Origin: a virus
IMG/VR virus record: IMGVR_UViG_3300030419_004862
Coordinates: 1 to 37,864 of that record
DNA length: 37,864 nt
Strand: one strand, 5' to 3'
Shown here: piece by piece, positions 1 to 37,864 of the stretch
How positions within the stretch are numbered: the stretch's first letter is position 1
How the letters are laid out: each line of letters starts with the position of its first letter
The notes under the pieces: model-generated
Databases searched by the model: none
What the model saw: the letters and a program-made list of their open reading frames with translations, nothing else
Told to the model about the DNA's origin: nothing
Position numbers and translations under genes: made by a program

Positions 1-410
1 AAGTTTGCGGTTTGCTCAGCAAAGGAAAGTACACGCTTGGCTAGCTCAATTACATCATCACAGTGCTTATCCAAACCATTAAAGCCAGCGTTACCAGCAC
101 AAATGGCCTTAATATCCTCCGCTGCAGAGCGTAGGTGGCCCGCGTGCTTGGCGATATCAGTGCAACCGGCAAGGATATCATCAATACTGACAGGCCTAGC
201 GGGAATGAGGCGGTATGCGGTCTGACCGTCGTCATCTTTGCCGGCTTCAACAAACAGCGCTAAGATATCGTCGTCATTTTTTATGGCAGCGTTAGCAATC
301 AACACAGCTTCACCGTGTGACTCTGCCTTGAAGTGGATTGCATCCGTCAAAACTGTAGTGTTTTTTGATGCGGTGTCCGAACGATTGTGAAACAGAATAA
401 AATTTTTCAT
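1..410 (-). CDS. Hypothetical early protein, 5' part of a gene that crosses the contig ends
   Basis: The gene starts at ATG 410-408 behind AAAGGAG with 10-base spacing (MKNFILFHNRSD...) and reads without a stop to base 1. If the terminal repeat is collapsed, the frame continues at 37730 and stops at 37700-37702, giving about 146 residues. I recognise no family. The protein is acidic and probably soluble: a beta-rich N-terminal half with a KNDDD stretch, then an alpha-helical half rich in Ala, Asp and Lys. It lies in the leftward accessory arm, with its own candidate promoter and palindrome just upstream (438-466). Its stop overlaps the start of the next gene by 8 bases, which suggests translational coupling. 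Confidence 0.8.
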   Translation of the reverse strand, partial: MKNFILFHNRSDTASKNTTVLTDAIHFKAESHGEAVLIANAAIKNDDDILALFVEAGKDDDGQTAYRLIPARPVSIDDILAGCTDIAKHAGHLRSAAEDIKAICAGNAGFNGLDKHCDDVIELAKRVLSFAEQTAN

Positions 411-1139: not shown

Positions 1140-1580
1140 TTAGTAGCTCCCGTTACCTAGGTTTAAATCGTCGTGGTCAACGCTAACCTTAATGCCTCGA
1201 CATAGCCCACAAGGGCAGGTAGTAACCTGTATGTAATGGTTCTCTAGTTGCTGTTTTAGGAATCGCTCTGACAATAGGGCGTATTTTAGCTCATCTCGCA
1301 GCCATTCGTTTTCTCTGCGGATTTTATCAATGCCGTTAGTGGTTTTGTTTTTCATGTTAGTAGCTCTCACTTTATTGCTGCCAGTCCAAAGGGCTGGATT
1401 TTCAAGCGTTGGGCTAACACCCAAACCCTCCCACATCTGAGCTTTTACATGGAGCCCGCGTAGCATTGCCTTGCCTGCGTGAATTGCTTCTGACTTAGTC
1501 TGAAAAAATACCCGACTAGCCGCCATGCCTTGACGGATTTCAAGCGTGAACCATTTTTCACAATCAGTTTTCTTTTTCAT
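1140..1580 (-). CDS. Hypothetical protein (146 aa), possibly two joined small genes
   Basis: Starts at ATG 1580 behind GGAGCAACTAAA. Residues 1-75 are a small alpha/beta domain (KWFTLEIRQGMAASRVFFQT). Residue 76 is a Met preceded by GAGAGCTACTAAC, the same start module that opens neighbouring genes, so a 71-aa protein may also start at 1355. That second part is coiled-coil-like (KIRRENEWLRDELKYALLSE) and then has a CPCGLC cluster near residue 123. The frame is open across the internal start, so the gene is either a fusion or one that makes both full-length and short products. No family recognised. Confidence 0.6.
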   Translation of the reverse strand: MKKKTDCEKWFTLEIRQGMAASRVFFQTKSEAIHAGKAMLRGLHVKAQMWEGLGVSPTLENPALWTGSNKVRATNMKNKTTNGIDKIRRENEWLRDELKYALLSERFLKQQLENHYIQVTTCPCGLCRGIKVSVDHDDLNLGNGSY

Positions 1581-1581
1581 T

Positions 1582-1683
1582 TTAGTTGCTCCAATTCTGA
1601 CGCGCGTCAGTAATCAAAAACACGGTGTCTGCGATACAAATTGTGGACGTGAATAGCGCGCAAAATATAGTTAGTGTGAACAT
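1582..1683 (-). CDS. Putative mini membrane or secreted protein (33 aa)
   Basis: ATG 1683-1681 follows AAAGGATAACAACACAC. The product begins MFTLTIFCALFTSTICIADT, a hydrophobic segment ending in an Ala/Asp boundary like a signal peptide or single membrane helix, and ends DARQNWSN. Its stop TAA lies inside the start module of the next gene (TGG AGC AAC TAA AATG), the same arrangement as confirmed neighbours, which supports expression. Function unknown. Confidence 0.45.
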   Translation of the reverse strand: MFTLTIFCALFTSTICIADTVFLITDARQNWSN

Positions 1684-1726
1684 GTGTGTTGTTATCCTTT
1701 TTTGTTAGAGTAAAAGCACTCCATAA

Positions 1727-1754
1727 GGTCACCAACTGTTGCTAGTTGGTGACC
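1727..1754 (-). other. Perfect 11-bp hairpin with 6-base loop
   Basis: GGTCACCAACT and AGTTGGTGACC pair completely around GTTGCT. It sits between the stop of the GP88-like gene (1767) and the next small genes. No T-run follows on either strand, so it is not a standard intrinsic terminator. An mRNA-stabilising, RNase III-processing or protein-binding hairpin is likelier. Confidence 0.6.
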
Positions 1755-1766
1755 CTAGCAAAGCTT

Positions 1767-2684
1767 TCACTGGTTGCCGTTCACAGTCTCGCCACTGTCA
1801 AAAGAGACAACAAAACCACTATCGACCGCTTGTTTTTTCTGTGCTTTAGTGCCTTTAGCGCGCAATCCAACAACAAAAGCGCCGGTTTTTGGTGCTCTAA
1901 GGAACCACAAATCATTTGTGTCGCCGTCAATCACTGGGAATCCGTGCCATGTTTTAGGTAATGGGGCTTTTGTGCGTGCGTCAACGTCAAAGACTACCGC
2001 TGCGCCATGGCCAGCGCTCAACATTGCAAGCGCTTGATTGTGTCGCGCTTTACCATCTTTGCGCGAGTAGACACGGCGCACCCTGCCATTAGAGCGCACA
2101 GCGTTAGGAATTGCGCTGTAGTCGTAAAACGTGACGTTAGGGTGTCGCTCTGCACAATCGTCTGCTAATTTCCAATGGTCTGTCGCAACGTTGAATCGAA
2201 ACGCAAGTTTGACGCCAAAGATTGCGGCGCGCATGGCCTCTGAGGCTATCTCACAATCAAGCAATGCGTTGAATCGTTCGCTGTCATACCGCATAGCGAG
2301 CGTACGCCCGATGCGGGCTATCTTGCTACTGGGCAGTGCACCTTGCCCCGTGCGACTACCGACACAGGCAGCTATACAGGCTTCCGTTGCGCCTGGACAT
2401 GCATTGTACCCTTTCAATTCGTCGATGAATTCAGCAGCCTCAAAGGCACTGGATAGCGTGAGCCCTCTGTTTATGTAGCCCGTCTCTGTGCCTTGTGCTT
2501 TGTCTAGTTTGGTCTGACTTCGCGTTATTACTCCGCGTCTACCCTCTAGAATCATCGCAGCTTGCCATGTGACAGCGTCAAACGGTGTCATCTTGCACTG
2601 CTCTGCCATTTTAGGCGGTTTGACGCCTTGTACAATCTGTTGTCGTTTTTGGGCTATTAGTTGTTTTGTCGTTGTCGTTGTCAT
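1767..2684 (-). CDS. GP88-like phage protein (305 aa)
   Basis: Starts at ATG 2684 behind AAAGGGTTTAGCAACC. The protein has a basic N-terminus, then a cysteine cluster near residues 96-107 (CPGATEACIAAC, CX6CX3C) followed by a basic helix and YDSERFNALL. Later come aromatic and histidine motifs (FRFNVATDHWKL, RVYSRKDGKARHN) and a C-terminal domain with FPVIDGDTNDLWFL. This pattern matches my memory of the 'gene product 88' family of phage proteins of unknown function. I could not run a profile search. The Cys cluster suggests metal or iron-sulphur binding. It is the largest gene of the leftward accessory arm. Confidence 0.6.
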   Translation of the reverse strand: MTTTTTKQLIAQKRQQIVQGVKPPKMAEQCKMTPFDAVTWQAAMILEGRRGVITRSQTKLDKAQGTETGYINRGLTLSSAFEAAEFIDELKGYNACPGATEACIAACVGSRTGQGALPSSKIARIGRTLAMRYDSERFNALLDCEIASEAMRAAIFGVKLAFRFNVATDHWKLADDCAERHPNVTFYDYSAIPNAVRSNGRVRRVYSRKDGKARHNQALAMLSAGHGAAVVFDVDARTKAPLPKTWHGFPVIDGDTNDLWFLRAPKTGAFVVGLRAKGTKAQKKQAVDSGFVVSFDSGETVNGNQ

Positions 2685-4600: not shown

Positions 4601-4945
4601 TTAGTACTTAGGTTTTCGTTTTCTTGGCGGCTTTTTGTCTTTGATTATGTCTAGGAGGTAGCAGGCGGTATTGGGTGGTCTAGTGACGTTGTTGCGCCAA
4701 TTGAATATGGAGGATTCCACGACGCCCAATCTCCAGGCAATAGCTCTAAACGACCAGCCTTTGGTTTTCATATAGTCTGTTGTGTCTTTGACCCATTGAG
4801 CACGTTGTGGCCTTTGTTCTGGTAGTTGGAGGTAGGGCTTTTTGGGTACTGTGATTTTCTTACCGCCACCACCTTTATTTGTTTTGCGTCGTCTTTTTGG
4901 TGGGTTCCAATTAAACCACCATGGGCGCTCTTCATTGTCGTACAT
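4601..4945 (-). CDS. HTH DNA-binding protein, probable phage regulator (114 aa)
   Basis: I prefer the start ATG 4945 (MYDNEERPWWFNWNPPKRRR...). A GTG start at 5023 would give 140 residues but has no usable ribosome binding site. After a basic Lys/Gly-rich linker comes a helix-turn-helix, GWSFRAIAWRLGVVESSIFN, typical of DNA-binding regulators, and a very basic C-terminus (KKPPRKRKPKY). It lies just upstream of the leftward early promoter. A promoter-like TAGACC-17-TACACT would start transcription at or next to the ATG, giving a leaderless message. The alternative reading is a small terminase subunit, which also carries an HTH; none is otherwise found. I favour a regulator. Confidence 0.65.
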   Translation of the reverse strand: MYDNEERPWWFNWNPPKRRRKTNKGGGGKKITVPKKPYLQLPEQRPQRAQWVKDTTDYMKTKGWSFRAIAWRLGVVESSIFNWRNNVTRPPNTACYLLDIIKDKKPPRKRKPKY

Positions 4946-4951
4946 ATATAT

Positions 4952-4980
4952 AGTGTAGGATTTGATATCGGTTTGGTCTA
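4952..4980 (-). promoter_or_regulatory. Candidate promoter giving a leaderless mRNA
   Basis: TAGACC (4980-4975), 17 bases, then TACACT (4957-4952), each 4/6 to consensus. Only six bases (ATATAT) separate the -10 from ATG 4945, so the transcript would start at or near the A of the start codon. This would explain why that ATG lacks a ribosome binding site, as for lambda cI made from PRM. Confidence 0.4.
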
Positions 4981-5365
4981 TGTGGTTTTTTATAACGGGG
5001 GTTGGGTGGGAAGGGACCAGCACCCCTATCCGTCATCCACCTTATTTAATGGGGGGATAGGTGGTGAATATCTGGGAGGCTTGGCGCAATTTTTCTATGG
5101 TGTTGGTGCACTGAACGAGTGTGTATGAGTGTACATCTGTGTAGTAGTGTTCATTTGTACAGTACTGAACATCCGCAGGTGTATATGATGGGGAGTATCC
5201 GATGCGGGTGTGTCGTTGTCGTGTGAGGTAATAGATCTTACCCCATTGCCTCTCTTAGCGGACACCTCGTTCCGGGTGTGGGGTTATGGTAGTTTGTTTG
5301 GCTCTCGCATTAGAGTTCTGGTTAGAAGGGAAGCCCGGAGGAGGAGTGCGAGATCTCGATAAGGT

Positions 5366-5494: not shown

Positions 5495-5914
5495 TTATTG
5501 GGGGCGTAATGATTCGCCTTTTTGCTCGTACTGAAAGAGTTGTTTGTGGATGGAGGGTAGGGCTCTGGCGTTGATGGGGAGGAGTCTTTGGATGTTGGGA
5601 CGCATGGCGTTTATGGCGTCTTGCATTACGGAAGAGATGTTGACCTCTAATGCTGTGGTGTATGGGGTGAGTTCTTTGCAGAGTTCCCGTGATATAGGGA
5701 GGGTGCGGAACTCTGGGCCACCTGCGTTGCCTATCTTTAGGCCACCCTTCTTTGTGGCGGTGGGGAGTGATCGTGCTTTGAATTGTGAAAGTAACATCTG
5801 GCCGCAGAAGTTGACTATGACGTCTTCACTGATGTTTAGCTTTCCGGCCTTGCGGCTAACCATTTGTGCTGTGGCTGTGTTTACTTTTATTTCTACTAGA
5901 TAATCATGGGTCAT
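5495..5914 (-). CDS. Hypothetical protein at the end of the packaging operon (139 aa)
   Basis: ATG 5914 lies behind AAGGAG with a strong GGAGCAGCAAC leader, 11 bases after the portal stop. Residues 1-45 (MTHDYLVEIKVNTATAQMVS) form a beta-helix unit with a hydrophobic helix. A Lys/Gly linker follows (TKKGGLKIGNAGG), then a helical C-terminal half. No family is recognised. Its position after portal suggests a head-related, packaging or regulatory role. I considered a small terminase but see no clear HTH. Confidence 0.65.
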   Translation of the reverse strand: MTHDYLVEIKVNTATAQMVSRKAGKLNISEDVIVNFCGQMLLSQFKARSLPTATKKGGLKIGNAGGPEFRTLPISRELCKELTPYTTALEVNISSVMQDAINAMRPNIQRLLPINARALPSIHKQLFQYEQKGESLRPQ

Positions 5915-5925
5915 GTTGCTGCTCC

Positions 5926-8154
5926 TTATTGACTAAATTCTGTCGCGGCTCCTGGTCCAAGTGGGCCAATAGCGTTGTTGAGTTCTGGTAATCCACCTTG
6001 GCCTGCGGCTAGAGGTATCTGACCTCCGGGTGGCTGCATGCCTGGTTGTTGTGGTGGCCTTTGCATTGCTTCGTACTGTAGCTCTTCAGGCGTGGGGTTG
6101 AATGCGTCCACTTGTGGTCCTGCGACGTCTACTCCATCAGGGGGGAGTGAGGCTGGTGCGGCCTGTGGCTGTTGTCCGGGTTGTGCTGGTGGAGCTACTG
6201 GTGGCCATCCTTGTTGTCCGGCGTCAGAGTATGGTGTCCACCATGGAACTCCGGCTTGTTGTTGTGACTCTAGGTGATAGTGCCATGCCAGGTGTTTCTG
6301 GAAGAGCATCTTTGTTTCATCGTCTAGCAGTCTGTAGTCTACGCTTTTCATGTAGGACAGCAGTTCATCGATGTGGGTTATGTGGTCTTCCCATGGTTGT
6401 GGGTCTGTCCATTGTCCGTTGGATAGCACGTGGTTTTCTTCACGCGCGTAGTTGCGGTCCCTGGAGCGGTCGCCGTGTATTTTCTCATCGTTACCAAACT
6501 CCATATCTTTCCTGGCCTGCATTTTGACTCGTGGATCGTTTTGATCTCCATACAGACCCAACTGGTACATCTGGAGAACAAGCTCCTGACGAACAGCAAT
6601 GTTTCGGCTGAGCATGGAGAACGGCTGAACCCGTACCTCCGTGTTCTTTATCTTGCTGCGGTAAAAAGAAAACACCTCTAGCTCATTGTTGCGCCCAGAC
6701 ACCCGGAGCATCCTGGACTTGGGCATGTACTCCCTCAACAACAATAACCAGTGACTACACATGTCAGCCACAGCCCCTTCAAGCTCACGCACCGTTGGAC
6801 CAAGTTTGGTGTGGTCTAGCGCGGCAGAGTGCCGTATTGCCCTTCCAGAAAAGCTGGCCGGGGCTTGGCCGCGTGAAACGTCTGATATTCCACTGATGTT
6901 CTCAATGTGCTTTATCTGCTCATTCTGAATGCGCTCGTGCTCAGGGGAGAGTCCGGGTGGAGGCATGGGCATGGGTGGCCTTGATGCCGTCCTGTTGTAG
7001 AAAATGATTTCACCGGGCTCGTCGCTGATGGCACCTTTCTCTACAGACCCCTTCTCGGCAACCCACTTAGGTTGAGCATGAAGGTTTTTGTTTTCAATCC
7101 GCTGGCTCGCAGACTTATTGAGTTCTTTCTGCGCCGGGATTATCGCTTTAACTAAGCCCTCGCCGGCCCATCGACCGGGAACGGTGTTATGACGCACTGC
7201 ATAAAACGGCAGTTTGTTGAACGGTAGGTCGCCTTTCTCAAGAAGGACATCTCCAGCGACCACGGCATAGAGCCCGCGAGGGTTCCTTGGTGACGCCTTC
7301 TCAAAGTACTCCACAATTAAAACACGGTCTAAGGCAGAGTCTTCGTCTCCCGTCGTGCCGCGAAAGTGGCGTATCAACTGTTGGCTAAATGAATCGGATT
7401 CGGCTGTAGATGACGGGTGAACAAACTTACCCTTCTGCGGCCACCGCGCTCGAACGGAATCAATGTGTACGTAGTTTGAGTGGTACATCCAGCGGCATGT
7501 GCTTTTATCTTTGGCTCCTGGATCCCACGACACCTCAAGCGGGTTGACTGCCGAAATAACAACATCACCAGCTTTCCGGGTCTCATAAATACGCGGGTAG
7601 TTACCCTCAGAGTCGGGCTCTGCGTCACTGGGAGTTACATCAACCTCAATGTCCTCACCAAGAGTGGGGTCCCACCATATCTTGAGAAAGCCTATCGGGG
7701 ACACGGCAACCCACTTCGCTAGCTCATGAATGACCTGAGCTGCGCCTGCACGCTCCCATTCGTACTCAAGCATCTTGTCGCACTGACGAGCAGCCTCAAT
7801 ATCATCATCATCGTTGGTCGCCGGAAGACAAATAAACCCAGGACGGTTTTCTGTAAGCTTGCCAACAAACGTCTCCACAGTTGGTAAGACGTAATTAAGG
7901 ACCATACGAACGCGCCACGCGGGCGGGTTGTCGGTGGTCAACACACTTTGAATGCGGTTGAACCGGCTCCACTGATGACCGGTAAGAAAAGCCATCCCAA
8001 GCCACGTGTCTTCTGTTGTTTGTAACTTAGAGCTTTCAGCTATCTGATGCTGCTCCATGACATAGGCTACAAGCTTTTGGTCTGCCACAGATGGGGCATA
8101 TGACGCTTTGGTGTCTTTGTAGTCCTGCGTAATCGGTCCTGATGGAAATGACAT
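5926..8154 (-). CDS. Portal protein (742 aa)
   Basis: The portal is the dodecameric ring at one capsid vertex through which DNA is packaged and ejected. Its length fits P22-like podovirus portals. Diagnostic features are an N-terminal helical region with GHQWSRFNR, then KLTENRPGF near residue 100, NPLEVSWDPGA around 207, and a strongly portal-like stem segment around residues 340-360 (IIPAQKELNKSASQRIENK). The last 100 or so residues are Pro/Gln/Gly-rich and probably disordered. ATG 8154 lies behind AAAGG at 5 bases. It is transcribed with the large terminase, as is usual, but away from the capsid gene, which is not. Confidence 0.9.
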   Translation of the reverse strand: MSFPSGPITQDYKDTKASYAPSVADQKLVAYVMEQHQIAESSKLQTTEDTWLGMAFLTGHQWSRFNRIQSVLTTDNPPAWRVRMVLNYVLPTVETFVGKLTENRPGFICLPATNDDDDIEAARQCDKMLEYEWERAGAAQVIHELAKWVAVSPIGFLKIWWDPTLGEDIEVDVTPSDAEPDSEGNYPRIYETRKAGDVVISAVNPLEVSWDPGAKDKSTCRWMYHSNYVHIDSVRARWPQKGKFVHPSSTAESDSFSQQLIRHFRGTTGDEDSALDRVLIVEYFEKASPRNPRGLYAVVAGDVLLEKGDLPFNKLPFYAVRHNTVPGRWAGEGLVKAIIPAQKELNKSASQRIENKNLHAQPKWVAEKGSVEKGAISDEPGEIIFYNRTASRPPMPMPPPGLSPEHERIQNEQIKHIENISGISDVSRGQAPASFSGRAIRHSAALDHTKLGPTVRELEGAVADMCSHWLLLLREYMPKSRMLRVSGRNNELEVFSFYRSKIKNTEVRVQPFSMLSRNIAVRQELVLQMYQLGLYGDQNDPRVKMQARKDMEFGNDEKIHGDRSRDRNYAREENHVLSNGQWTDPQPWEDHITHIDELLSYMKSVDYRLLDDETKMLFQKHLAWHYHLESQQQAGVPWWTPYSDAGQQGWPPVAPPAQPGQQPQAAPASLPPDGVDVAGPQVDAFNPTPEELQYEAMQRPPQQPGMQPPGGQIPLAAGQGGLPELNNAIGPLGPGAATEFSQ

Positions 8155-8173
8155 ATGTACCTTTTGTTTGTGT

Positions 8174-8593
8174 TTAGGCTCTGTCGCTCATTGGTCCACT
8201 TAGGGACATGGGTGTCGCCGGGAGTGACATCGGCGGCGTATATGGGTCCTGCGAGTTGTAGGTTGATAGCGCTGACGCTGCACCGCCGCCCCATCGATCT
8301 CTAATCCTCTGAAGAGCGGCCTGCAACGCTGGGCTGTGCTCACCAGGACGAGCGCCAACCGTGTCCGGGGGAGTCGGCGCGGATATCGGTGATGGCGTCG
8401 GAGTCTCTAAGCTGGCGGCTTTACTAGCAAGAAACTGCTTTAAGAACTCATCGTTATTAGGCTTTCTGTATACTTGCGGCACCCTCGGGCCACCACTCGT
8501 GGGCTGTCCAGTTATTGCGCCACCTAAAGCATTAAACAAACCACCTATAACATTAGAACCTAGCGCGCTAGCTAATGATGCAGCAAACGACAT
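8174..8593 (-). CDS. Small hypothetical, probable virion-associated protein (139 aa)
   Basis: The start is a TAATG overlap with the gene before it and has GGAGG five bases upstream. Residues 1-35 are a Gly/Ala-rich amphipathic stretch (ASALGSNVIGGLFNALGGA), like membrane-active N-termini of ejection or pilot proteins. The rest is Pro/Ser/Thr-rich and low in complexity, with a helical island (ALQAALQRIRDRWGGG). No family recognised. Its place between terminase and portal argues for a head or ejection role. Confidence 0.65.
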   Translation of the reverse strand: MSFAASLASALGSNVIGGLFNALGGAITGQPTSGGPRVPQVYRKPNNDEFLKQFLASKAASLETPTPSPISAPTPPDTVGARPGEHSPALQAALQRIRDRWGGGAASALSTYNSQDPYTPPMSLPATPMSLSGPMSDRA

Positions 8594-8829
8594 TAAGCAC
8601 CTCCCTCACCACCTGCAACCAACCGGTAATCCCTCTCGAACCCTGCCCTATGCTTGGCATCAAACAGTTCCCAGTGCTGGGATGAGTTGGTTGCGGCTTT
8701 AAGTTTCAAATCCTTGAACTCACTATCCTCGCGAAAATTTCGCGCATAGCAATATAATGCCACGCTAGCACACATAATTGTTACAGAAATCAACGCAACG
8801 CATGAAAAAACAATTAATACAGTTATCAT
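8593..8829 (-). CDS. Small membrane protein (78 aa)
   Basis: The start ATG 8829 shares its A with the TAA of the terminase (TAATG); a GTG two codons upstream (8835) is an alternative, with AGGA five bases before it. Residues 1-30 form one hydrophobic helix (MITVLIVFSCVALISVTIMC), followed by a charged soluble tail (NFREDSEFKDLKLKAATNS) of about 48 residues. No family known. It could anchor a packaging or ejection factor at the membrane. Confidence 0.65.
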   Translation of the reverse strand: MITVLIVFSCVALISVTIMCASVALYCYARNFREDSEFKDLKLKAATNSSQHWELFDAKHRAGFERDYRLVAGGEGGA

Positions 8830-10709
8830 TACCACTTTGTTCCTAGGTAAGTATCGTGACCATCAGGGTATGCAGAATAAAAGCGCTCCCAAAACGCATC
8901 TCTAACATGGGGCTCTTCATCCTCTCTGACAACAGAGACCTCGCCTAACTCCGTGTCAATATAAAGTAGCTGGGCCATTGCAAACACTGCATCGTCATGC
9001 TCACCAGGCATAGCCTCACACCGGCCTCTTGATGTAGTGATAAACGTTTGGCACTCCCTTAGAAGGGTTTCGCTGTGGAAGTCCCAGCTATTGTATCGTA
9101 TTGCACGAGATAGCGCCGCTACACAGGCATCGCGTTTACCCTTGTTTCCCATTCTGAACCCAAACCGCTGGGTCCAATTGCCGCTGGTTGAGCGGACATA
9201 TAGGTTGGGGTAGCCTGCGCCTTTGTTCATCTCTAAAAGATTTTGCAGTGTAGCTAACCCTGGACCATCCACCTCTGGAGACATTAACGCTACGTTGTAA
9301 TGCATTGCTGCGGCTATAGCCTGACTGGCAACAACGTCAGGTGGGCTGCGGTGATAGAACTCAGCAACCTGCTTTCGGTCGGTTCTGTCGCCAACCTGGA
9401 TACAGGAAAAGTCACCCTCGTCGCTGCCGTGTGCCGTGTCAATTGTTACGATGTACTCATGCCCAGGCTCAGGATCAAACCACACTCTCCACCTTGGAGC
9501 GCCCTCGGTTAGGGTGACCTCTTTGGTTCTGGAGTTGTAATCAATGCTTTCATAGGCCGTTGAGGGGGTGGCGTCCTCTGCCATGCCTGTTAGGCGTTGC
9601 CTAATCTTAACCTGATCGATAGGTGAAGACGAAGAAGATGTAAAAGCTATCTCAGGAGACAAAGGAAACTCCGTGTCGAAAGCCTTGATGTCGCCGTCAA
9701 ACTTAGTTAAAAGCGTCTGAACCGCCCACCTGACCTGGCATGGCTTAAGGTCAAACATAATAGCCCTACGCGCCCAACGTTCATCATAGTGTAACTTTTC
9801 AGCTAACCGCCAAAATTCAGACTGATTCTCATCTGCATACGCTTTTCTAAACTTCCGATCAAGCGTTCGGTCTCCAGGTTTTTCTGCTAGTTTGTATTTG
9901 TCGTGATCTTGCCATCCAAAGAAAAAAGCTTTGAATAGGTTGCCCGGTTCTTTTTTGTGCGCTTTCCAGAATCGATCATAAAACGCACCAGCGCTGCCAC
10001 ACGCCGTGGATTCAATGATGACGTATGTGCCGTGCACGTCACTAATGGAGCCCATTGACGACTGCATAACATCAGCATCACTGGTTGTGCGCCGCTTTTT
10101 CCACCACAGCCCAAGCTCGCTAAGATGAAGGTAGTCTGGCGTTGCACCGCGATCAGCATCAGTTGCCCCCTGCGTTTCAACTTCAAACCGGGAATCATGC
10201 TCCCAGTAAATACCCATGTCCCGGCTAGAGCGCTTGTGCTTGCCAGGGGCAATATTTGCAATGGCGGGGTGCTGGTAGGTCTGGTAGCGGTGCGCAATCT
10301 CAAATATTTCCTCGGTCGATTCTTTACGGTGAGCCATGCACTTGGCCAAATAGTGTTTATTGAACTGACACTTCCAATGGCCATAGGCTTCTATAAGGGT
10401 GGAGAATCCAATCTTTCGGCTCTTGAGTATGATCACCCTGACAGGGCGCTTTAGTCGTTCCATCTCAATAAACTCTTCGAGAACTACTTTTTGCTCTGGA
10501 TTCAAAAGAAAAGGAATCATCTTGTTGCGCCCAGTCTCCCTATCCTTTACGCGGATACGAAGACAGTGCTCAGCATAATACTCAAAACTTTTCTTACACT
10601 TATCCCAAAAAGCCTCCGGGGATAAATTCCCAGGTATAGGCCGCAGCGCGTCTTCATCAGACGCGGAACCTTGGGCATCAAAGGGCGACCAATTGGTTGC
10701 TCCGCTCAT
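8829..10709 (-). CDS. terL: Terminase large subunit (626 aa)
   Basis: This is the ATP-driven packaging motor and DNA-cutting nuclease. The ATPase domain has a Walker A-like loop LKSRKIGFST (95-104), a Walker B with Ser-Glu instead of Asp-Glu (YLHLSE, 193-198) and a coupling motif YVIIESTA (229-236). The C-terminal RNase H-like nuclease keeps its acidic residues: Asp424 in VTIDTAHGSDEGDFS, Glu479 in MSPEVDGPG and the EHDDAV motif at 570-575. Length is slightly above typical. No small terminase is recognisable beside it. The ATG has no obvious ribosome binding site and lies close to an AT-rich TTATAT sequence. Confidence 0.93.
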   Translation of the reverse strand: MSGATNWSPFDAQGSASDEDALRPIPGNLSPEAFWDKCKKSFEYYAEHCLRIRVKDRETGRNKMIPFLLNPEQKVVLEEFIEMERLKRPVRVIILKSRKIGFSTLIEAYGHWKCQFNKHYLAKCMAHRKESTEEIFEIAHRYQTYQHPAIANIAPGKHKRSSRDMGIYWEHDSRFEVETQGATDADRGATPDYLHLSELGLWWKKRRTTSDADVMQSSMGSISDVHGTYVIIESTACGSAGAFYDRFWKAHKKEPGNLFKAFFFGWQDHDKYKLAEKPGDRTLDRKFRKAYADENQSEFWRLAEKLHYDERWARRAIMFDLKPCQVRWAVQTLLTKFDGDIKAFDTEFPLSPEIAFTSSSSSPIDQVKIRQRLTGMAEDATPSTAYESIDYNSRTKEVTLTEGAPRWRVWFDPEPGHEYIVTIDTAHGSDEGDFSCIQVGDRTDRKQVAEFYHRSPPDVVASQAIAAAMHYNVALMSPEVDGPGLATLQNLLEMNKGAGYPNLYVRSTSGNWTQRFGFRMGNKGKRDACVAALSRAIRYNSWDFHSETLLRECQTFITTSRGRCEAMPGEHDDAVFAMAQLLYIDTELGEVSVVREDEEPHVRDAFWERFYSAYPDGHDTYLGTKW

Positions 10710-10857: not shown

Positions 10858-11676
10858 ATGATAGACAACGACGTAAACTTAGAAGGACCTGGTGATTCGT
10901 CATCTCCAGAAAATGCGGCACTCCACACGCCCCCGTCAGGCGAAACAGACGAGTTTGTGCCGGAACGCGACCCGGACACGGGTCAGGTCAAGCCTGTTCC
11001 TTATGATCGGTTTCATCAAGTAAATGAAAGATATCGGTCGACTAGAACAGACCTTGAGCAAGCTCAACATAATTTACAATTAAACCAAGAACTTTCCGAG
11101 CAGCTTAGAGCGCAAAACCAGCAGTACGCTAATTTGATTTCGCAGATGCACGAGGCGCAGCAGCGCCAGCCTGTGTATCAGCAGCCAGAGGTTCCTCAAG
11201 ATCCCTATGGGGGTCCTGAGTACGACCCATATGAAGACCCAACCGATGCAAAGATTAGGCAAATGCACGCCCAGGTTAAACAATCCAGGGATGCGCTTTC
11301 TCAACTGCAATCGCAAATGGAATCTCAAAGCAAAGAGTTTGGCATGTACAGACAGGAGCAACAAACTAAAGCACTGGAGCGTCAGATAACAACTGACATC
11401 GACAGTGCACTTAGAGAGTTCCCTGCTGCCAATAAATATTGGATGCACAACGAAATGCTTAGAACTGGCAAGCACGACAGTCAAACCATCAGACTTCTGG
11501 CAAAACGTTCACATGAAGCTCAAGATTCAAAACGAAGAGATTGGGCACGCGCACAGGGATACATTGAGCCGCCACGCAAGCTAATGAGTAGCGGTCCACC
11601 TGCGCAGCAAATTCAAGACCTTGGTGACGATCTTGACGCTATTGAAGAAGCAATTCGGCAAAGGTTCGGAAGCTAA
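10858..11676 (+). CDS. Scaffolding protein (272 aa)
   Basis: It sits directly before the major capsid gene, where phage scaffolds normally lie, and has the usual makeup. The N-terminus is acidic and disordered (PERDPDTGQVKPVPYDRFHQ) and is followed by Gln/Glu-rich coiled coil (about residues 60-100), a Pro/Tyr/Asp-rich linker (PYGGPEYDPYEDP) and a second coiled coil (about 140-185). A basic helical C-terminus would contact coat protein. Scaffolds guide procapsid assembly and then exit. Sequence identity to a named scaffold is not claimed; the call rests on context, composition and coiled coils. Confidence 0.75.
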   Translation: MIDNDVNLEGPGDSSSPENAALHTPPSGETDEFVPERDPDTGQVKPVPYDRFHQVNERYRSTRTDLEQAQHNLQLNQELSEQLRAQNQQYANLISQMHEAQQRQPVYQQPEVPQDPYGGPEYDPYEDPTDAKIRQMHAQVKQSRDALSQLQSQMESQSKEFGMYRQEQQTKALERQITTDIDSALREFPAANKYWMHNEMLRTGKHDSQTIRLLAKRSHEAQDSKRRDWARAQGYIEPPRKLMSSGPPAQQIQDLGDDLDAIEEAIRQRFGS

Positions 11677-11688
11677 AGGAGAGCCAAA

Positions 11689-12951
11689 ATGGCCTTAGAG
11701 ACGGGTGGCGGTACTGCCAACAGTGAATACGATGCAATGCTAAAAGACTTCTACGAAGGTGGAGTCCGGTCGCACATCCAAAACAAAGTAACAATTCTTT
11801 CAAAGCTTGAAAAAAGCAAGCGCAAGTGGAACGGTCGCCAAGTGACGTTTCCTTTGCACCTTGGCCGAAACCATGGTGTTGGAGCGCGCGGTGAGGGAAC
11901 TAACATCCCTACAGCCGGTGAGCAAAGCTACAAAGAGAGCAAGATCAAGGCCAAGTACCAATACGGTCGAATCTCTCTTACTGGCCCAGTAATCGCCGCC
12001 TCGCAGGGTGACAAAGGGGCGTTTGCCTCTGCGCTGACCCAAGAGATTAAGGGAATGCGAAACGACCTTCGCAATGACATGAACCGCCAGTGCTGGGGTG
12101 TGGTCCTCGACAGCGGCGATGGTGCCGGTAATTCTGGTGTATTGGCAATAACAACAAGCAGTGGCGCTGTATCAACACTGGCGTGCGCAAATGATACCGG
12201 CGTTCGGTATCTGAAAACAGGCATGTCTGTTGTAATTGGAACTCCTGGCGCATCGGCACTTACGAATGCAGACGCGGTTGAAATCTTAGACGTTGATAGC
12301 TCGGCAAAAACGGTGACTATTGCTGAGACAACGGTGGCATCGAGCGACGTTGTTGTTCGCGGAGATTCGACATCTGCGCACTCGTACACCAACGAGATTA
12401 CTGGCCTGTCAAGCATTGTTCACGACGACGATGACATCGACCTACAGACTGTTGATGTTTCCGCGAACACTGAGTTCAAGGCGCACGTTGAGTCAAACAG
12501 CGGTGTCAAGCGGGACCTAAGTCTTGAGTTGATGCAGTTGGCGCTGGATGCTTGTGATGAAAAGGGTGGCGAAGAGCCAGACCTTATCATGGGTCATCAC
12601 TCAATGCGTCGTGAGTACGTGAACTTGCTTACAAGTGACGTTCGTTATGCTCCAGAGCAGATGCGCGCAGGATTCAAGACATTGACATATGCTGGTGGAA
12701 ATCAGCCTATTCCTATCTTGTTTGACAAGCACGCTCCATATCATAAGTTGTACTTCATCAATACTGGCGACATTAAGCAGTACGTGATGAAGGACTGGGG
12801 CTGGGCAGACCGTGACGGTGCTGTTCTTAGCCGTCAGAGCGACCAAGACTCTTGGGAAGCTTTCATGTGTTGGTACGGTAACTTGGGCTGTGAGGTTAGA
12901 AACACTCACGCTGTGATTACTGATCTCAATGCGTCTAATTTAGTCTTCTAG
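11689..12951 (+). CDS. Major capsid protein (420 aa)
   Basis: Starts 12 bases after the scaffold gene behind AAAGGAG. The N-terminus (LKDFYEGGVRSHIQNKVTIL) and the region RKWNGRQVTFPLHLGRNHGV are typical of phage coat proteins of the HK97 fold. An inserted beta-rich domain follows around residues 145-220 (Ser/Ala/Val/Thr-rich). The C-terminal part carries DLIMGHHSMRREYVNLLTSD and a strand-rich end (WYGNLGCEVRNTHAVITDLN). It forms the icosahedral shell. A strong terminator follows the gene, consistent with a highly expressed unit made in excess over the downstream genes. Confidence 0.88.
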   Translation: MALETGGGTANSEYDAMLKDFYEGGVRSHIQNKVTILSKLEKSKRKWNGRQVTFPLHLGRNHGVGARGEGTNIPTAGEQSYKESKIKAKYQYGRISLTGPVIAASQGDKGAFASALTQEIKGMRNDLRNDMNRQCWGVVLDSGDGAGNSGVLAITTSSGAVSTLACANDTGVRYLKTGMSVVIGTPGASALTNADAVEILDVDSSAKTVTIAETTVASSDVVVRGDSTSAHSYTNEITGLSSIVHDDDDIDLQTVDVSANTEFKAHVESNSGVKRDLSLELMQLALDACDEKGGEEPDLIMGHHSMRREYVNLLTSDVRYAPEQMRAGFKTLTYAGGNQPIPILFDKHAPYHKLYFINTGDIKQYVMKDWGWADRDGAVLSRQSDQDSWEAFMCWYGNLGCEVRNTHAVITDLNASNLVF

Positions 12952-13051: not shown

Positions 13052-13645
13052 ATGATTTTAGATAGAAACATTAAGTATAAGTATCAAAGCCTGTACTTTC
13101 CGGCTGCGGCCTTTGACTGGAAACCGGGTTCAGCAGACAACCAAGACGCTGGCGACGGCAATGATGACTTGGTAGAAGTTGGCACAACTGGATTTGTTGG
13201 CTGGAAGTTTGATGCTGACCCTAGCGACGATCAGGTGTTTATAACAATGCCTACGCCAACAAACGTTGACTGGGACAATGATGTGTTTTACCGGGTTATC
13301 TGGGCTGCGGCTACATCAAGTGACCTTAGCTTAACGGAGAGCTTTGCTATTTCTGCCGCCGAGGTAGCGTTTGGTGCTGCGCCAGCGACGAGTGCCCCAA
13401 CAGCATTTGCCACGGTATCAGATACGCCAAGCGCCATTAATGTTCCGCTGGCCACCCCGTGGGCCAAGGCAAACTCATCTACGACAGACGGCATTGCCGG
13501 GACAAGTGATATTTTGCGAGTATTCGTAGACTGCACAACGGACACGGCAAACGATCCACGGTTGATTGGCCTGGAGCTAAAGTACTTACCTAAACTAACT
13601 GACGGTGCGCAACACAAGTTGACAACGGATCCAACTGACGCATGA
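13052..13645 (+). CDS. Probable capsid-associated or decoration protein (197 aa)
   Basis: ATG 13052 has GGAG nine bases upstream. The protein is beta-rich and low in charge clusters: FPAAAFDWKPGSADNQDAGD at the start, then alternating Val/Thr/Ser stretches and an Ala/Pro/Thr-rich centre. It ends with strand-like LRVFVDCTTDTANDPRLIGL. No motif assigns a family. Position straight after the coat gene and a beta-sandwich look suggest a decoration or head-fibre subunit; this is inference. Confidence 0.6.
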   Translation: MILDRNIKYKYQSLYFPAAAFDWKPGSADNQDAGDGNDDLVEVGTTGFVGWKFDADPSDDQVFITMPTPTNVDWDNDVFYRVIWAAATSSDLSLTESFAISAAEVAFGAAPATSAPTAFATVSDTPSAINVPLATPWAKANSSTTDGIAGTSDILRVFVDCTTDTANDPRLIGLELKYLPKLTDGAQHKLTTDPTDA

Positions 13646-22301: not shown

Positions 22302-25300
22302 ATGTCATCACAGCCACCGGTAGAGGTCGATGACGTAGACTTGCTCTTTGAAGAGCTTGGGTACGACAGTAAACCAAAGCCGGTAGACCCGGACCTTGCC
22401 GGGTCTGCCGAAGATGACGTAGACTTGCTCTTTGAAGAGCTTGGGTACCCGCAGCCCGAGCCTAAGCCCGCAGAGGACGTATCACTCCCAGCCCCAGATT
22501 TATCTGACTTCGTTAGAAAGCCATCAGTACATACGCCTGATTTCGCTGCCGAAGCGGGCTTTCGCGGGCGTCTATGGGACCATCTAATATACGAGCACGC
22601 TGAGCCCAAAGATGTATACAAGAGGATAAAGCAAGGGGGCAAAGAGGCAAGAGAGGCTGCTTACCAGGAAGCTTTAGACTCCATGATGGAGGAGGCGAGG
22701 GCGAAAAGCAGGGGTCTCACTCGAGCAAATGTAGAAAGACACTGGGCGGTTCCAGTCTCTGGCCCACGAGTTGGAAGGGGTGGATACGACGCGCCGCCAT
22801 CCACAGAGGCGCATGAGGTTAAGTTTGGCATAGTCCCTTACCCAGGGAAGCCGTTTGTTCAAATTGGAACACGAGGTTTGGTGACAAAGCCCGATCTTGC
22901 AGAGTCAATGGTTGGAAAGCCCCTCATGGCCATTGCCAATATTTTGGACAAGACTCTGGGCCTCGGTCTACCTGGCAGCATTTATGAAGCAGTCGATAAG
23001 AATGTTGCAGAGAAGGTCTTTGGTCTGACCCGATCTAAAGAGGCCAGGGAGGCCGAGATAGCCAAAGAAAAGGCAGACCTTGAAAGGGGCAGTCGTGCCG
23101 CCAGTACCGTAAGACAGCAGCTAATAAAAGAGCATGGGATACGAGACGTGGACGATGATGAGTCCTGGTTCTCAATCAACCCGATAGCAAACCTCTATGA
23201 AACCATTAACCTAACTCCAGCAAGCGTTTCATTGGTCGAGCCTGGAAAGAAAATGCCAGCCCGGTGGGTCAAACCGGGAACCCCTGTGAACTGGGACACC
23301 GCAAAGCATTCAGTCGTAAACAGTTGGGACTTCATCACGGCGTTCCCTGCTGCAACGGTCCAGTTGATAACATTTGGCGTGGACTTTGTGACAACACCCG
23401 ATGAGCTAACTAGCAGGGTGGAAACGATTGGCGGTCTGGTGCCAGAGACATTCGAATACACCGGGAGGCGGGTAGGGCAGTTCATTACAGACCCGGCTGG
23501 GTTTCTCAAAGAGGGCTTTATACAAGCAGGGCTAGATATAGCTGTCCCCTTTGTGGCAGTTAGGTCTGCCGCCCAGCGTGTTGGTGTAAAGAAGCTGCGT
23601 AAAACCCTGAAGGACATGGGGGATAAGGCTCCCCCGGACTTTCGGAAGCTGAACGACATTGATGATGACGCGCAGTTTGTCCGCGAACTCCAGGACACTA
23701 TAAAAAAACATGAGCAAGAAGCAGTCACAGCGAGAAAGAAGGGTATAGAGCTTGCTGATGATTGGCTAGCTTCGGTTGGCACTGAGGGTGGCCGGGAGCT
23801 TAGGGGGGCGCTCCATGCGACTGGCGAGGCTATAGAGACCGAGATCGCATCTGCTGCCAGAAGGGTAGCAAAGGTTGATGTCAGACTAGCTAAAACCACA
23901 GGGGAAATTCTATACACAGAAAGGGCGCGCAAGAACATCGTATCCAACATCACCGCGCTTGAGAAAGAAGTGGAGGCCGCTAGAAAAGCCGTGCCTGACG
24001 CCGAGGCTCCAGAAAGCCTAACCCGAGAGATCGGCAGACTGGAAGCAAGGCTCGACGTTGCGAATACACACCTATCCACACTGCGCGCCGCTGCCTCTGA
24101 AAAGATAGAAGCCGTCGCGTCAAAGCGTCGTGCAGAGGTAGATTCACTTGGGAGGCGAGCAGCGGACCTTGATATGCTCGCTAGTGATATCCGGTTTAAC
24201 TTGAGTCACCCCGAGGGGCCAAGGATATTGAGCAGCTCACCGTTTTATGACGACTACATAAGGGCGTCTAATGTGGCAGAGGGCAAGATTGGAAAGAAGA
24301 GCGCAGCCAATATTAAACAAGCCGAGGCGCAGATGGCGGCAATTGAGGAAGCGGCGATAGCTCATGACAGGACTAGGCTGGGCTCGATTGAGATTCAGGC
24401 CGCAGCCTTGAAAAGAAAAAAGAAGAAGATTGAGCTAACCAATACACCGTCTAAGCTCAAAGAGCAGCAGAGGGCTATACTAGGGAGCAAGCAAACCAAG
24501 AGGGGTATCGAGGCAGAGTCTGCCGTGCTAGTCGCAGAGGCGGAGCTTGGGGCTGCGAGAGAGGCTGCGCGGCGAGCGAAGGCGACTAACGCGGCTAAGG
24601 CACGCGCGCGCGTTTCCACAGCAGAGGCACGGCTAAGCAAGGCAAGGTCCGCGCTGGAGAGGTTTGAGGCTAAAAAACTACCGAGGCTTCAGGGGCTCAG
24701 GACTGGCGTTTTGGAGTTGGCTGCTGAGCGAAATTTTGCTGTTGAGCTTCACCGTGTTTTGTCTGACCGCGCAAAAATGTCCAACGTCCTTGGTCGCACC
24801 AGAGCCCAAAGGGTGGCTGACAACCTTGGCATAAGCACAAAGGGTCGCCCGGAGGTAGGGCAGGCATTTGCGAGGACCCATATTGCTCGTTCAAAAGCAG
24901 TGGAAAAGCACAGGAAACTTGTAGAGGGAATAGAGCAACGGTTCGAGCGTAGAATGCATTTCGAGGATGGCATCAACACCGGATTGAGGCTGCGCTCCGA
25001 CTTGATGGGGAAAAACACTGGTTACTACACGTGGATGGGTATAGCGAACGCAATATCAGAGGCCAACATGGTGCTCAATCCTTTGTGGGGCCCATGGGTT
25101 TTAGCTAACCGGCTGAAGAATAAGTTAATTGAGGGGCCTGGTTATCTGTTTATAAGCGCTAACACCGCGCGGGCCTTGAGGGAGAAGAACTTTCTTAAGT
25201 CGGACAAGGTAGAAGGTCTAGATAGCCGTGGTTTCGGGAGGTTCATTACAGACAAGCTGGACAAGGGTTACCTGCGCCAAAGGCTGCGCGATGCTGACAA

Positions 25301-31171: not shown

Positions 31172-31303
31172 ATGTTTTCAATTGCTTTTAGAAGTCGTCG
31201 AGCCAAAGCCAAGGCAGAGCCTGTCAAGAAGAAGGCTGCGCCTAAGAAGAAGGCAGTCAAAAAGAAAGCTCCGGCCAAAAAGAAAACGGCCAAAAAGAAA
31301 TGA
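31172..31303 (+). CDS. Histone-H1-like lysine/alanine-rich mini-protein (43 aa)
   Basis: ATG 31172 has AGAGGAG seven bases upstream, and the TGA overlaps the ATG of the endolysin gene (ATGA). After MFSIAFRSRRAKAKAEPV the chain is almost only Lys, Ala and Pro (repeats such as KKKAAPKKKAVKKK). The composition matches the C-terminal tails of H1-like and AlgP-like proteins, which bind DNA or RNA nonspecifically. It has no acidic residue beyond one Glu. A role in DNA condensation or nucleic-acid contact is likely, but its place beside the endolysin is unexplained. Confidence 0.65.
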   Translation: MFSIAFRSRRAKAKAEPVKKKAAPKKKAVKKKAPAKKKTAKKK

Positions 31304-32139
31304 GCCCCGATGAGGTAAAGAGGCTCCAGCACCTATTGAACTTCGTAGGTTACAATGCTGGCCTGCTTGATGGGGTGCTGGGGCCAAAGACACTATCCGC
31401 TGCCGCTGCTTATTTACACGTAGAGCACGGCGATACTTTTGTGGCTTCACGTGCACTCAACCGTCTTACTGTGGAAGCTGTCGTTGATTTAATTGAAGGC
31501 ATTGACGTAAGTGGACATCAAGGCAAGGTCGATTGGAAAAAGGTGGCGGCAGCGGGCTGCAACTTTGCCTGGGTAAAAGCTACCGAGGGCACTACCCACA
31601 AACAACGCACAATGCAACGCAATCTCGATGGTGCCAGGGCTTGGCAGATACCTGTGGGCGTGTACCACTATGGCAGGCCTAACACATATAGAAGTCTCAA
31701 GCTGGTTGACGCCAAGAAAGAGGCTGAGAATATGTTGTCGCATTACGGTGCGCCGCAGCCTGGTGACCTTGTTCCTGTGTTGGACATGGAGAGTGGGTAC
31801 ATCAAGACCGAGCATGACTACAACGTTGACTGGACGTTGGAGTGGTGCCGAGTTGTAGAGGAAGAACTTGGGTGCAAGCCCATGTTGTATACTGCTAGAT
31901 GGGCTATACAGTCTCGGCTGGAGAAGGCGGCTAACGTAGAGGAGTTGGCTAAGTATAAGCTGTGGTGGGCTGAGTATCGTAGCGCTACGACAAAAGCACC
32001 TCGAAAAAAGATGTTGCCATGGAAGGGCTACACAGTATGGCAATGGACAGGGAGTGGTAGTATTGCTGGGGTGAAGGGTCGTGTAGATCGAAACCGCATG
32101 AAGCCAAAAGATTTAGAAGGATTAAAAATTTCATCATGA
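31300..32139 (+). CDS. Endolysin: GH25 lysozyme with N-terminal cell-wall-binding-like segment (279 aa)
   Basis: The enzyme cuts the glycan of peptidoglycan at the end of infection. Residues 1-40 (LQHLLNFVGYNAGLLDGVLG plus PKTLSAA) match a peptidoglycan-binding repeat. From residue 67 the GH25 fold is clear: GIDVSGHQGKVDWKKV with catalytic-site Asp69, WVKATEGTTHK, PVGVYHYGRP, VPVLDMES with Asp162 and Glu164, PMLYTARW, LWWAEY and VWQWTGSGSIAGVKGRVDRN. There is no signal peptide, so it needs a holin. Its start overlaps the stop of the lysine-rich mini-gene by 4 bases. Lysis partners follow directly. Confidence 0.92.
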   Translation: MSPDEVKRLQHLLNFVGYNAGLLDGVLGPKTLSAAAAYLHVEHGDTFVASRALNRLTVEAVVDLIEGIDVSGHQGKVDWKKVAAAGCNFAWVKATEGTTHKQRTMQRNLDGARAWQIPVGVYHYGRPNTYRSLKLVDAKKEAENMLSHYGAPQPGDLVPVLDMESGYIKTEHDYNVDWTLEWCRVVEEELGCKPMLYTARWAIQSRLEKAANVEELAKYKLWWAEYRSATTKAPRKKMLPWKGYTVWQWTGSGSIAGVKGRVDRNRMKPKDLEGLKISS

Positions 32140-35571: not shown

Positions 35572-35740
35572 ACAGACACAGAGCACGTATAACAGGACTT
35601 TAACCCCCAGGCCAGGGGCAACTAAGGGTGAGGCGGTAAAGCCCAGAGAAACAGCAGCTAAAAGAGCCCGAGTATTTGCAAGGCTACCTGCTGAGTTTCC
35701 TGCGCCACCACCAACAGCAGGAGGGACAAGCAATGGGTAA
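35561..35740 (+). CDS. Small basic proline-rich hypothetical protein (59 aa)
   Basis: ATG 35561 lies within the end of the helicase gene with GAGG seven bases upstream; the end overlaps the start of the nuclease gene. The product (MPIRQTQSTYNRTLTPRPGA...) is basic, Arg/Pro/Thr-rich and probably disordered, with an AAKRARVFARLPAEFPAPPP segment. Coupling at both ends favours a real gene. Function unknown. Confidence 0.5.
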   Translation: MPIRQTQSTYNRTLTPRPGATKGEAVKPRETAAKRARVFARLPAEFPAPPPTAGGTSNG

Positions 35741-36170
35741 GGCACAGCGAGACAAGGGCCACCGCTTTGAGCGTCAGGTGGCGGCAGATGCAACTGTGGC
35801 TCTGGGCAAGAAGGTTACACGGACAATCCAGTTTAGGGGTGGTGAGTCTGAAGGTTCAGATGTTGTTGTTGAGCCCTTCGCGATTGAGTGTAAGGCATAC
35901 AAGAAAGTTGGAGGGCTAATCAATAGGGCTTATGAGCAGGCTAAGCGTGACGCCAAGGAGGGGTTTATTCCCATCTGTATATGCAAGGGCGACAGACAAG
36001 AGCCTTTAGTTACGATGGGTTACAGCGATTTCTGGGAGCTGATCAGGGAGTGGCGAGAAAGGGGTGAGGGTTATGACGCACCCTACGATGCGGCTACTGT
36101 CAGGGAGTTTGAGAAACTGTTCGCGGTAGCGGTTGATCGTGAGATTAAGAAGAAAGAAGGTGAGAAATGA
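35733..36170 (+). CDS. PDDEXK-fold nuclease, probable Holliday-junction or recombination nuclease (145 aa)
   Basis: I chose ATG 35733, with AGGAGG eight bases upstream; an upstream ATG at 35676 is unlikely. The N-terminus KGHRFERQVA supplies Glu13, and GSDVVVEPFAIECKAYK gives Asp43, Glu52 and Lys54, the D...ExK core of PDDEXK enzymes. The later helix (INRAYEQAKRDAKEGFIPI) and CKGDRQEPLVTM strand fit Hjc/VRR-like small nucleases. In this position, between helicase and annealase, a recombination or resolution role is likely. Substrate not shown. Confidence 0.78.
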   Translation: MGKAQRDKGHRFERQVAADATVALGKKVTRTIQFRGGESEGSDVVVEPFAIECKAYKKVGGLINRAYEQAKRDAKEGFIPICICKGDRQEPLVTMGYSDFWELIREWRERGEGYDAPYDAATVREFEKLFAVAVDREIKKKEGEK

Positions 36171-36343: not shown

Positions 36344-36416
36344 GCTTGCTAACTATGTTGCGGGAGAAGATGAATTTAAACAGAGGAGTATAACACACAA
36401 TGACGATTCCATTTGA
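36336..36416 (+). CDS. Possible 26-aa reading frame
   Basis: A GTG at 36336 behind GAGAAGG opens a frame beginning MFELANYVAGEDEFKQRSIT that stops inside the annealase gene. It is short and acidic; there is no homology evidence. Listed as weak. Confidence 0.2.
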   Translation: MFELANYVAGEDEFKQRSITHNDDSI

Positions 36417-37200
36417 GATTAGAGAAGTTTTAGAGAAAAGGTTCGAGCCCGGTGAATGCTCGATACACCCGTATCATAAGTGGACTTACGTTGAGGGCCA
36501 CCGCGTAATCCACCGGCTCAATGATGCGTTTGAGGGCGGCTGGAGTCACACGATAATCAACCGCTGGCGAGAGGGTGACACGCTTATGGTCACGGTTAGG
36601 GTTACGGCTGACATGTTCTGGATGAATGAGCACGGCATGAGGGAGGAGACCACTGTAAGCCATGAGGGCTTTGGCTCTGCTGACGTGAAGTTCCGCAAGT
36701 GTAAGGCCAGGACGTGTGAAATCTGCCCAACTAACCCCAACCATATGGGACCGGTGGACATTGGTGGTGACTGGAAGGCCGCTGCAACTGACGGGCTAAA
36801 GAAAGCCTCAACCCACTTTGGTGTCGCTCTTCACCTTTACGATGCCGCAGATGCGATCCACCATGACACCAGGGAGGACCACCACAGAAGAAAGGGTGAA
36901 AGGATGACACCCAACTTCAACACCAGCATAGGTGGAGGGCCGACGCCGCAGCGTCAGCCAGCGTTACCAGCACAATCGCCACCGCAGCAGCAACAAGCAC
37001 CGCAGCAGCAGGCTGCAGGTGACATACCTCAGTGCGAGAAATGCGGCAGTGATGTCTGGAACAATCGCGAAAAGTGTGCTGGCGGTTGGCGTGGCCCAGT
37101 GTTTAAATGTAAGGACCGGGCGTGTGACTGGGTGAAGTGGAAAGAAAAAGCGGAAGCGCCACCCGCGCAGCCTATTCCGCTAGATGAGATACCTTTTTAG
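36400..37200 (+). CDS. Rad52-type single-strand annealing protein with zinc ribbon and SSB-like tip (266 aa)
   Basis: ATG 36400 has AGGAG upstream. Residues about 10-150 match the Rad52/22 annealase domain (HKWTYVEGHRVIHRLNDAFE, GDWKAAATDGLKKASTHFG, VALHLYD). It would anneal complementary strands for recombination-dependent replication. A Cys cluster lies at 101-109, then a Gln/Pro linker (about 180-205) and a four-Cys zinc ribbon (Cys212, 215, 226, 237/242). The chain ends PLDEIPF, like the acidic DDDIPF tip of bacterial SSB that recruits repair proteins. It lies at the end of the replication arm, beside the nuclease. The tip call is mine, from sequence alone. Confidence 0.85.
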   Translation: MTIPFEIREVLEKRFEPGECSIHPYHKWTYVEGHRVIHRLNDAFEGGWSHTIINRWREGDTLMVTVRVTADMFWMNEHGMREETTVSHEGFGSADVKFRKCKARTCEICPTNPNHMGPVDIGGDWKAAATDGLKKASTHFGVALHLYDAADAIHHDTREDHHRRKGERMTPNFNTSIGGGPTPQRQPALPAQSPPQQQQAPQQQAAGDIPQCEKCGSDVWNNREKCAGGWRGPVFKCKDRACDWVKWKEKAEAPPAQPIPLDEIPF

Positions 37201-37480
37201 ATAGGTTGAACTTGGCTATTGCCTCGGCTTGTGCTGGGGAGGGTAGGTGCTGCTGCCGTTCGGGCTCAAGGTGCCTGCCCTTCTCTGCTCGTTTTCTCAT
37301 GGCGACCGCTTGAACAATGGCCGCTGTGCATGAGTCACACAGGTCGTCAAGCTGCTCCCCTGGTGGGTCAACGGTGAAGTTGATTTTCATTTGCCGCCAC
37401 CCATCAGGGGATTTACCTGTCGCCGTGTGCGCTACCCGCGAGCAAGTGTCGCATACCCACTTGACTTGCTCGTGCCTCAA
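37172..37480 (-). CDS. Zinc-binding hypothetical protein (102 aa)
   Basis: Starts at TTG 37480, overlapping the stop of the gene before (TTGA), with AAGG five bases upstream. Two CxxC pairs, CDTC near residue 10 and CDSC near 48, flank a tryptophan-containing strand (PDGWRQMKINFTVDPPGE), as in small phage zinc ribbons. A helical basic tail follows (AVAMRKRAEKGRHLEPERQQ). Its 3' end overlaps that of the convergent annealase gene by 29 bases. No named family. Confidence 0.7.
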   Translation of the reverse strand: MRHEQVKWVCDTCSRVAHTATGKSPDGWRQMKINFTVDPPGEQLDDLCDSCTAAIVQAVAMRKRAEKGRHLEPERQQHLPSPAQAEAIAKFNLSKKVSHLAE

Positions 37481-37707
37481 TAGACCTTCTCAATTGCCGC
37501 TAGCAATGTGGCCAGCTTTACCATGGTGTTGGATGGCTGGCTGCACCGCTTGTCCCCTACATCTTTGCCGTCATCGCTTTCAGCTTGCGCCTTGTAGGTG
37601 TAGAGTTGCTGGACGTGTGCAAGCCCAAGTAAGTCGGCTGCACGAGTGGGGCTCCACCCTGCGTCCTTGATAATCAACATGAGTTTTTGTGCGTTTGTGT
37701 CATCCAC
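37477..37707 (-). CDS. Small HTH-like hypothetical protein (76 aa)
   Basis: I chose GTG 37707, with GGAGG six bases upstream (MDDTNAQKLMLIIKDAGWSP...); a longer reading to 37764 lacks a ribosome binding site. The first 40 residues hold a helix-turn-helix-like stretch, GWSPTRAADLLGLAHVQQLY, followed by a polar linker and a C-terminal helix (MVKLATLLAAIEKVY). This suggests DNA binding. Its stop and start overlap those of both neighbours. Confidence 0.65.
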   Translation of the reverse strand: MDDTNAQKLMLIIKDAGWSPTRAADLLGLAHVQQLYTYKAQAESDDGKDVGDKRCSQPSNTMVKLATLLAAIEKVY

Positions 37708-37864
37708 GGTGGTCCTCCGAATCAAAAGCAAAGTTTGCGGTTTGCTCAGCAAAGGAAAGCACACGCTTGGCTAGCTCAATCACATCGTCACAGTGCTTAT
37801 CCAAACCATTAAAGCCAGCGTTACCAGCACAAATGGCCTTAATATCCTCCGCTGCAGAGCGTAG
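37700..37864 (-). CDS. 3' part of the gene that starts at 410 (end copy)
   Basis: The window ends inside this gene; 37864 to 37731 repeats bases 134 to 1 and 37730-37700 adds the C-terminus (FAFDSEDHRG and TGA). It is the continuation of the gene starting at 410 on the circular map, not a second gene. Three bases differ from the left copy, all at third codon positions and silent. Confidence 0.8.
   Translation of the reverse strand, partial: LRSAAEDIKAICAGNAGFNGLDKHCDDVIELAKRVLSFAEQTANFAFDSEDHRG
37731..37864. repeat. Terminal direct repeat of bases 1-134 (circular overlap)
   Basis: 131 of 134 bases match the left end. Differences are T30/C37760, T51/C37781 and A57/G37787, all transitions. 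A gene reads through the join in frame, so the simplest explanation is one circular or circularly permuted genome closed in assembly, with two variants supplying the ends. Confidence 0.85.

Follow-up and report, generated by a model that had tools for sequence, protein, structure and literature searches.

Two described systems stand closest to the contig analysed here. In the CheckV study a direct terminal repeat (DTR) was called where the start of a contig recurred at its end over 20 bp or more, and the DTR lengths of metagenomic contigs were in excess at 55, 77 and 99 bp, peaks that were ascribed to assemblers opening a circular template so that one k-mer length of sequence stays duplicated (PMC8116208). 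In the cultured Arthrobacter phage Jasmine and Microbacterium phage Shocker, the direct terminal repeats are exact and measure 1330 and 484 bp, respectively, and that of Jasmine has also been reported elsewhere (PMC5513430). The subject of this study is the single IMG/VR virus contig IMGVR_UViG_3300030419_004862, analysed over its whole length of 37,864 nucleotides (hereafter the window), the last 134 bases of which repeat the first 134 with three differences inside a gene that crosses the join of the two ends. That these ends join to give a complete circular map of 37,730 bp is well supported by the comparisons of sequence described below. With a probability of about 0.88, the whole pattern reflects such a complete map, closed at a k-mer size of 77 and entered through a strain-variant branch at the left end.

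The contig ends overlap in two parts

Direct comparison of positions 1-134 with 37731-37864 showed 131 of 134 positions to be identical, and the three differences were all transitions (T/C at 30/37760, T/C at 51/37781 and A/G at 57/37787), in agreement with the positions reported in the first-pass annotation. Pure chance was rejected as the source of the overlap, since a 25-mer of it is present twice in the record where shuffles expect none. The exact runs within the overlap measure 29, 20, 5 and 77 bases, and the overlap is composite, an exact 77-bp tail following a variant stretch of 57 bases. The 134 bp had earlier been taken as one overlap and are better read as two parts. The first is the left variant branch at 1-57 (T30, T51 and A57), probably derived from a co-occurring strain, and the second is an exact assembly overlap with copies at 58-134 and, at the right contig end, 37788-37864. 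The corresponding 57 bases of the circle itself lie at 37731-37787 and carry C37760, C37781 and G37787.

The final 77 bases, identical to 58-134, make up the only 77-mer that is repeated in the record. At k = 77 the graph of the record has a single dead end at position 1, where the variant branch begins, a single merge of positions 58 and 37788, and no further branch; the record is then a perfect loop of 37,730 bases (58 to 37787) entered via the 57-base left branch. At other values of k, several repeated k-mers were found at k = 55 and none at 79 or more. The length of the exact overlap is that of one of the peaks reported for metagenomic DTRs, and it would equal the k-mer size of the assembler, which was probably 77.

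The window shares with the CheckV DTR contigs an end overlap of k-mer length, and its relatives are circularly permuted, but it differs from them by the 57-base variant branch ahead of the exact overlap, so that prefix and suffix are not identical. Taken literally, its ends differ at three sites and do not show the identical start and end of at least 20 bp, and the exact 77-bp end repeat emerges only after the 57 left bases have been set aside. The likely course of events is that a de Bruijn-graph assembler, probably with a final k of 77, closed the circular template of one uncultivated podovirus-like phage. The 57-base branch would stem from a second strain in the same sample with silent changes at three sites, and by breaking the exact identity of prefix and suffix it would have made the closure invisible to an exact terminal-repeat check.

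We noticed that the contig ends of G010 (L034-L036), one of the related contigs introduced below, likewise overlap inexactly, two mismatched bases at the left leading into an exact run of 98.

The gene crossing the join is whole in relatives

The gene crossing the join is located on the minus strand. Its 5′ part, residues 1-136, occupies positions 1-410, the open reading frame (ORF) starting at 410 and running off the left end, and its 3′ part with the stop codon, residues 137-146, was placed at 37700-37730 by the joined frame and by the collinear homologues in the relatives G001 and G018. The joined frame was open through the join and gave a protein of 146 amino acids, and all three differences fell at third codon positions (GTA/GTG, GTA/GTG and GAT/GAC), so that the joined translation bore out the earlier description of three silent changes in a frame that stays open. 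No Pfam or PHROG match was found for the join protein, no match was obtained in viral contigs when either this protein alone or a 22-mer of the overlap was searched, and tblastn of the protein against cultured phages was equally without a match.

Searches with the capsid and the terminase identified about 50 related IMG/VR contigs. In two of these, the homologue of the join gene was whole and internal to the contig, at 4612-5034 of 37,220 bp in G001 and at 11079-11501 of 13,106 bp in G018. The alignment of the homologues covered all 146 residues, including residues 1-92, for which only the left end of the window is coding, and the last ten, for which only the right end is coding. On one side of the gene, both relatives carried homologues of 37477-37764, of 37172-37480 and of the Rad52-like gene (36400-37200, plus strand, Pfam Rad52_Rad22), all from the right end of the window. 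On the other side, G018 carried the genes of the left end, 1140-1580 and the GP88-like gene 1767-2684 (both within 1140-2684, minus strand), as recognised by domain scan and comparison with the relative. G001, the closest relative, was circularly permuted against the window, and the contig ends of G001 map to about 5 kb on the window, a region in which the window and G018 are continuous.

Mutual circular permutation of contigs is what a circular map predicts, and as the relatives carry the join gene intact and the closest one is permuted, the ends of the window join. A circularly closing viral contig should have relatives that run across its join and are permuted against it; G001 and G018 both cross the join, and the window and G018 bridge the ends of G001. 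The circular map of about 37,730 bp proposed in the first-pass annotation was thus upheld by two independent join-spanning relatives together with the exact 77-base overlap.

Integrated elements are in general flanked by direct repeats, and the two copies might accordingly be read as attachment-site-like repeats of a provirus cut from a host contig. The chance of this is negligible: on either side of the repeat the sequence belongs to one and the same phage gene, no integrase was present among the proteins scanned (some small ORFs were outside the scan), no tRNA gene was found in the window, and a profile scan of genome contigs for the terminase large subunit (TerL) found no relative, host or provirus. 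Provirus attachment sites were rejected, as G001 and G018 carry the join inside phage sequence.

Source of the three differences

Among the possible transitions in the overlap, 35% are synonymous, and three of three would be so with P = 0.043; the corresponding value was 0.012 for any three substitutions being synonymous and 0.0016 for three uniform changes being all silent transitions. Between the join-gene homologues of G001 and G018, 18 silent and 8 changed codons were counted, with proportions of synonymous (pS) and nonsynonymous (pN) differences of 0.18 and 0.025, respectively, and a pN/pS of about 0.14. Purifying selection of this order on the join gene means that silent differences are expected between related strains. 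From these sequence comparisons, a co-occurring strain under purifying selection appears the likeliest source of the three differences, and sequencing error is disfavoured. The earlier proposal of two strains under purifying selection accordingly stands as the likeliest one, consistent with the pN and pS of the homologues. The accompanying statement that the pattern was unlikely for random error was overstated: the silent-site probabilities do favour real variants, but only moderately strongly (4.3% for transitions and 1.2% for any change).

The closure could be real and the three left-branch differences still be sequencing or assembly errors at a dead end, with no second strain involved. Dead-end branches in assembly graphs commonly arise from errors at read ends, and the variant stretch is such a branch. 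We regard this as unlikely, since all three differences are synonymous third-position transitions, with the probabilities given above, and errors would outlast assembly only if several reads shared them.

Several points weigh against closure at k = 77 with a strain-variant branch. Both the k of the assembler and the minor strain allele are deduced from the contig, and an exact run that matches a standard k could be due to chance, for which our own estimate is roughly 4-13%. Read-end errors produce branches of the same kind, and under such errors three silent transitions out of three retain the probability of 0.043. Moreover, assemblers often clip so short a branch, which would be retained only if it were well covered or continued into a longer variant path.

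Terminal repeats and the clustered contig ends near 5 kb

The phages Jasmine and Shocker resemble the window in having a homologous major capsid protein (about 29-31% identity) and portal protein (about 23%). That these distant cultured relatives possess direct terminal repeats could suggest that the virion genome is linear and runs from position 1 to 37864, with the two copies in the window as genuine direct terminal repeats. This is very improbable, because the copies are non-identical, whereas Jasmine and Shocker have exact ones, because the gene in which the join falls is whole and internal in G001 and G018, and because the contig ends of relatives cluster elsewhere, at about 5.05-5.21 kb on the window map. 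A phage with true direct terminal repeats would have identical copies at both ends, where three differences were found. A true terminal repeat at position 1 was rejected for the non-identity of the copies and the position of the join within a gene that is whole in the relatives, and the overlap of the window is in this respect different from the repeats of Jasmine and Shocker. Equally improbable is that a single virion molecule carries both copies as terminal repeats that have diverged, in which case the phage would maintain redundant ends of differing sequence within a coding gene.

In 10 of the 23 listed relatives that end upstream of the terminase, the distance from the 5495-5914 homologue downstream to the contig end was 219-375 bp (L004, L008, L011, L013, L018, L027, L055, L065, L074 and L075), and the remaining contig ends of these 23 relatives were scattered over several kilobases. 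The site at about 5.05-5.21 kb may mark where the virion DNA truly ends, or a region that assembles poorly. A circular assembly map fits headful packaging as well as a linear, repeat-ended virion genome and does not show the virion ends. The circular map proposed in the first-pass annotation holds as closure, but from the map alone it does not follow that the virion genome is circular or permuted. A search of solved structures with TerL gave no meaningful match, and the type of packaging was not readable from TerL.

The motif GGGGTACCTTAG, allowing up to 2 mismatches, was detected in about half of the loci in the TerL-side intergenic stretch next to the 5495-5914 homologue, upstream of the terminase gene (including L008, L010, L011, L016, L018, L063, L074 and L075). 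It was absent at that intergenic position in the window, G001 and G018. The motif is not claimed as a mark of a natural terminus, given this absence in the window and the lack of a fixed distance to the contig ends.

Genome content

Profile scans identified a P22/SU10-like portal protein (5926-8154, minus strand), the terminase large subunit (8829-10709, minus strand), an SU10-like major capsid protein (11689-12951, plus strand) and a glycosyl hydrolase 25 endolysin (31300-32139). Further products found by profile scans were a replication initiation protein, a DnaB-like helicase, a RusA-like resolvase and the Rad52-like protein. By capsid and portal, the nearest cultured phages were actinobacterial podoviruses, such as Jasmine and Shocker, with 23-31% identity, which is at most a hint that the host of the window is an actinobacterium. 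A nucleotide search with the first 20 kb of the window gave no match to cultured phages.

The portal-terminase block (5926-10709) lies in inverted orientation to the capsid genes. The inversion is common to G001 and G018 and is thus not an assembly error of this record; in the more distant G010, G014 and G005, terminase, portal and capsid are on one strand. Mosaic genes were also observed. The gene at 13052-13645 has 87% amino acid identity to G010 versus 37% to G001, that at 35676-36170 has 90% to G014 versus 45% to G001, and the GP88-like gene at 1767-2684 has 88% to G018 and no match in G001. Two exact direct repeats were noticed, one of 20 bases (83-102 and 36956-36975), with one copy in the join gene and the other in the Rad52-like gene on the opposite strand, and one of 36 bases (22329-22364 and 22413-22448) at the start of an ORF of 1960 amino acids.

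Implications

The signature described here is of a kind already known and arises by ordinary assembly, the biology is ordinary, and what is added is a small methodological point on inexact closures. Closure checks that require an identical prefix and suffix miss contigs entered via a strain-variant branch, and allowing a short mismatched lead-in before an exact repeat of length k would recover such contigs. For this phage, the record becomes a complete circular map, though an exact end-repeat check would treat the contig as open, and with the map complete, the absence of a gene from it can be read as real absence.
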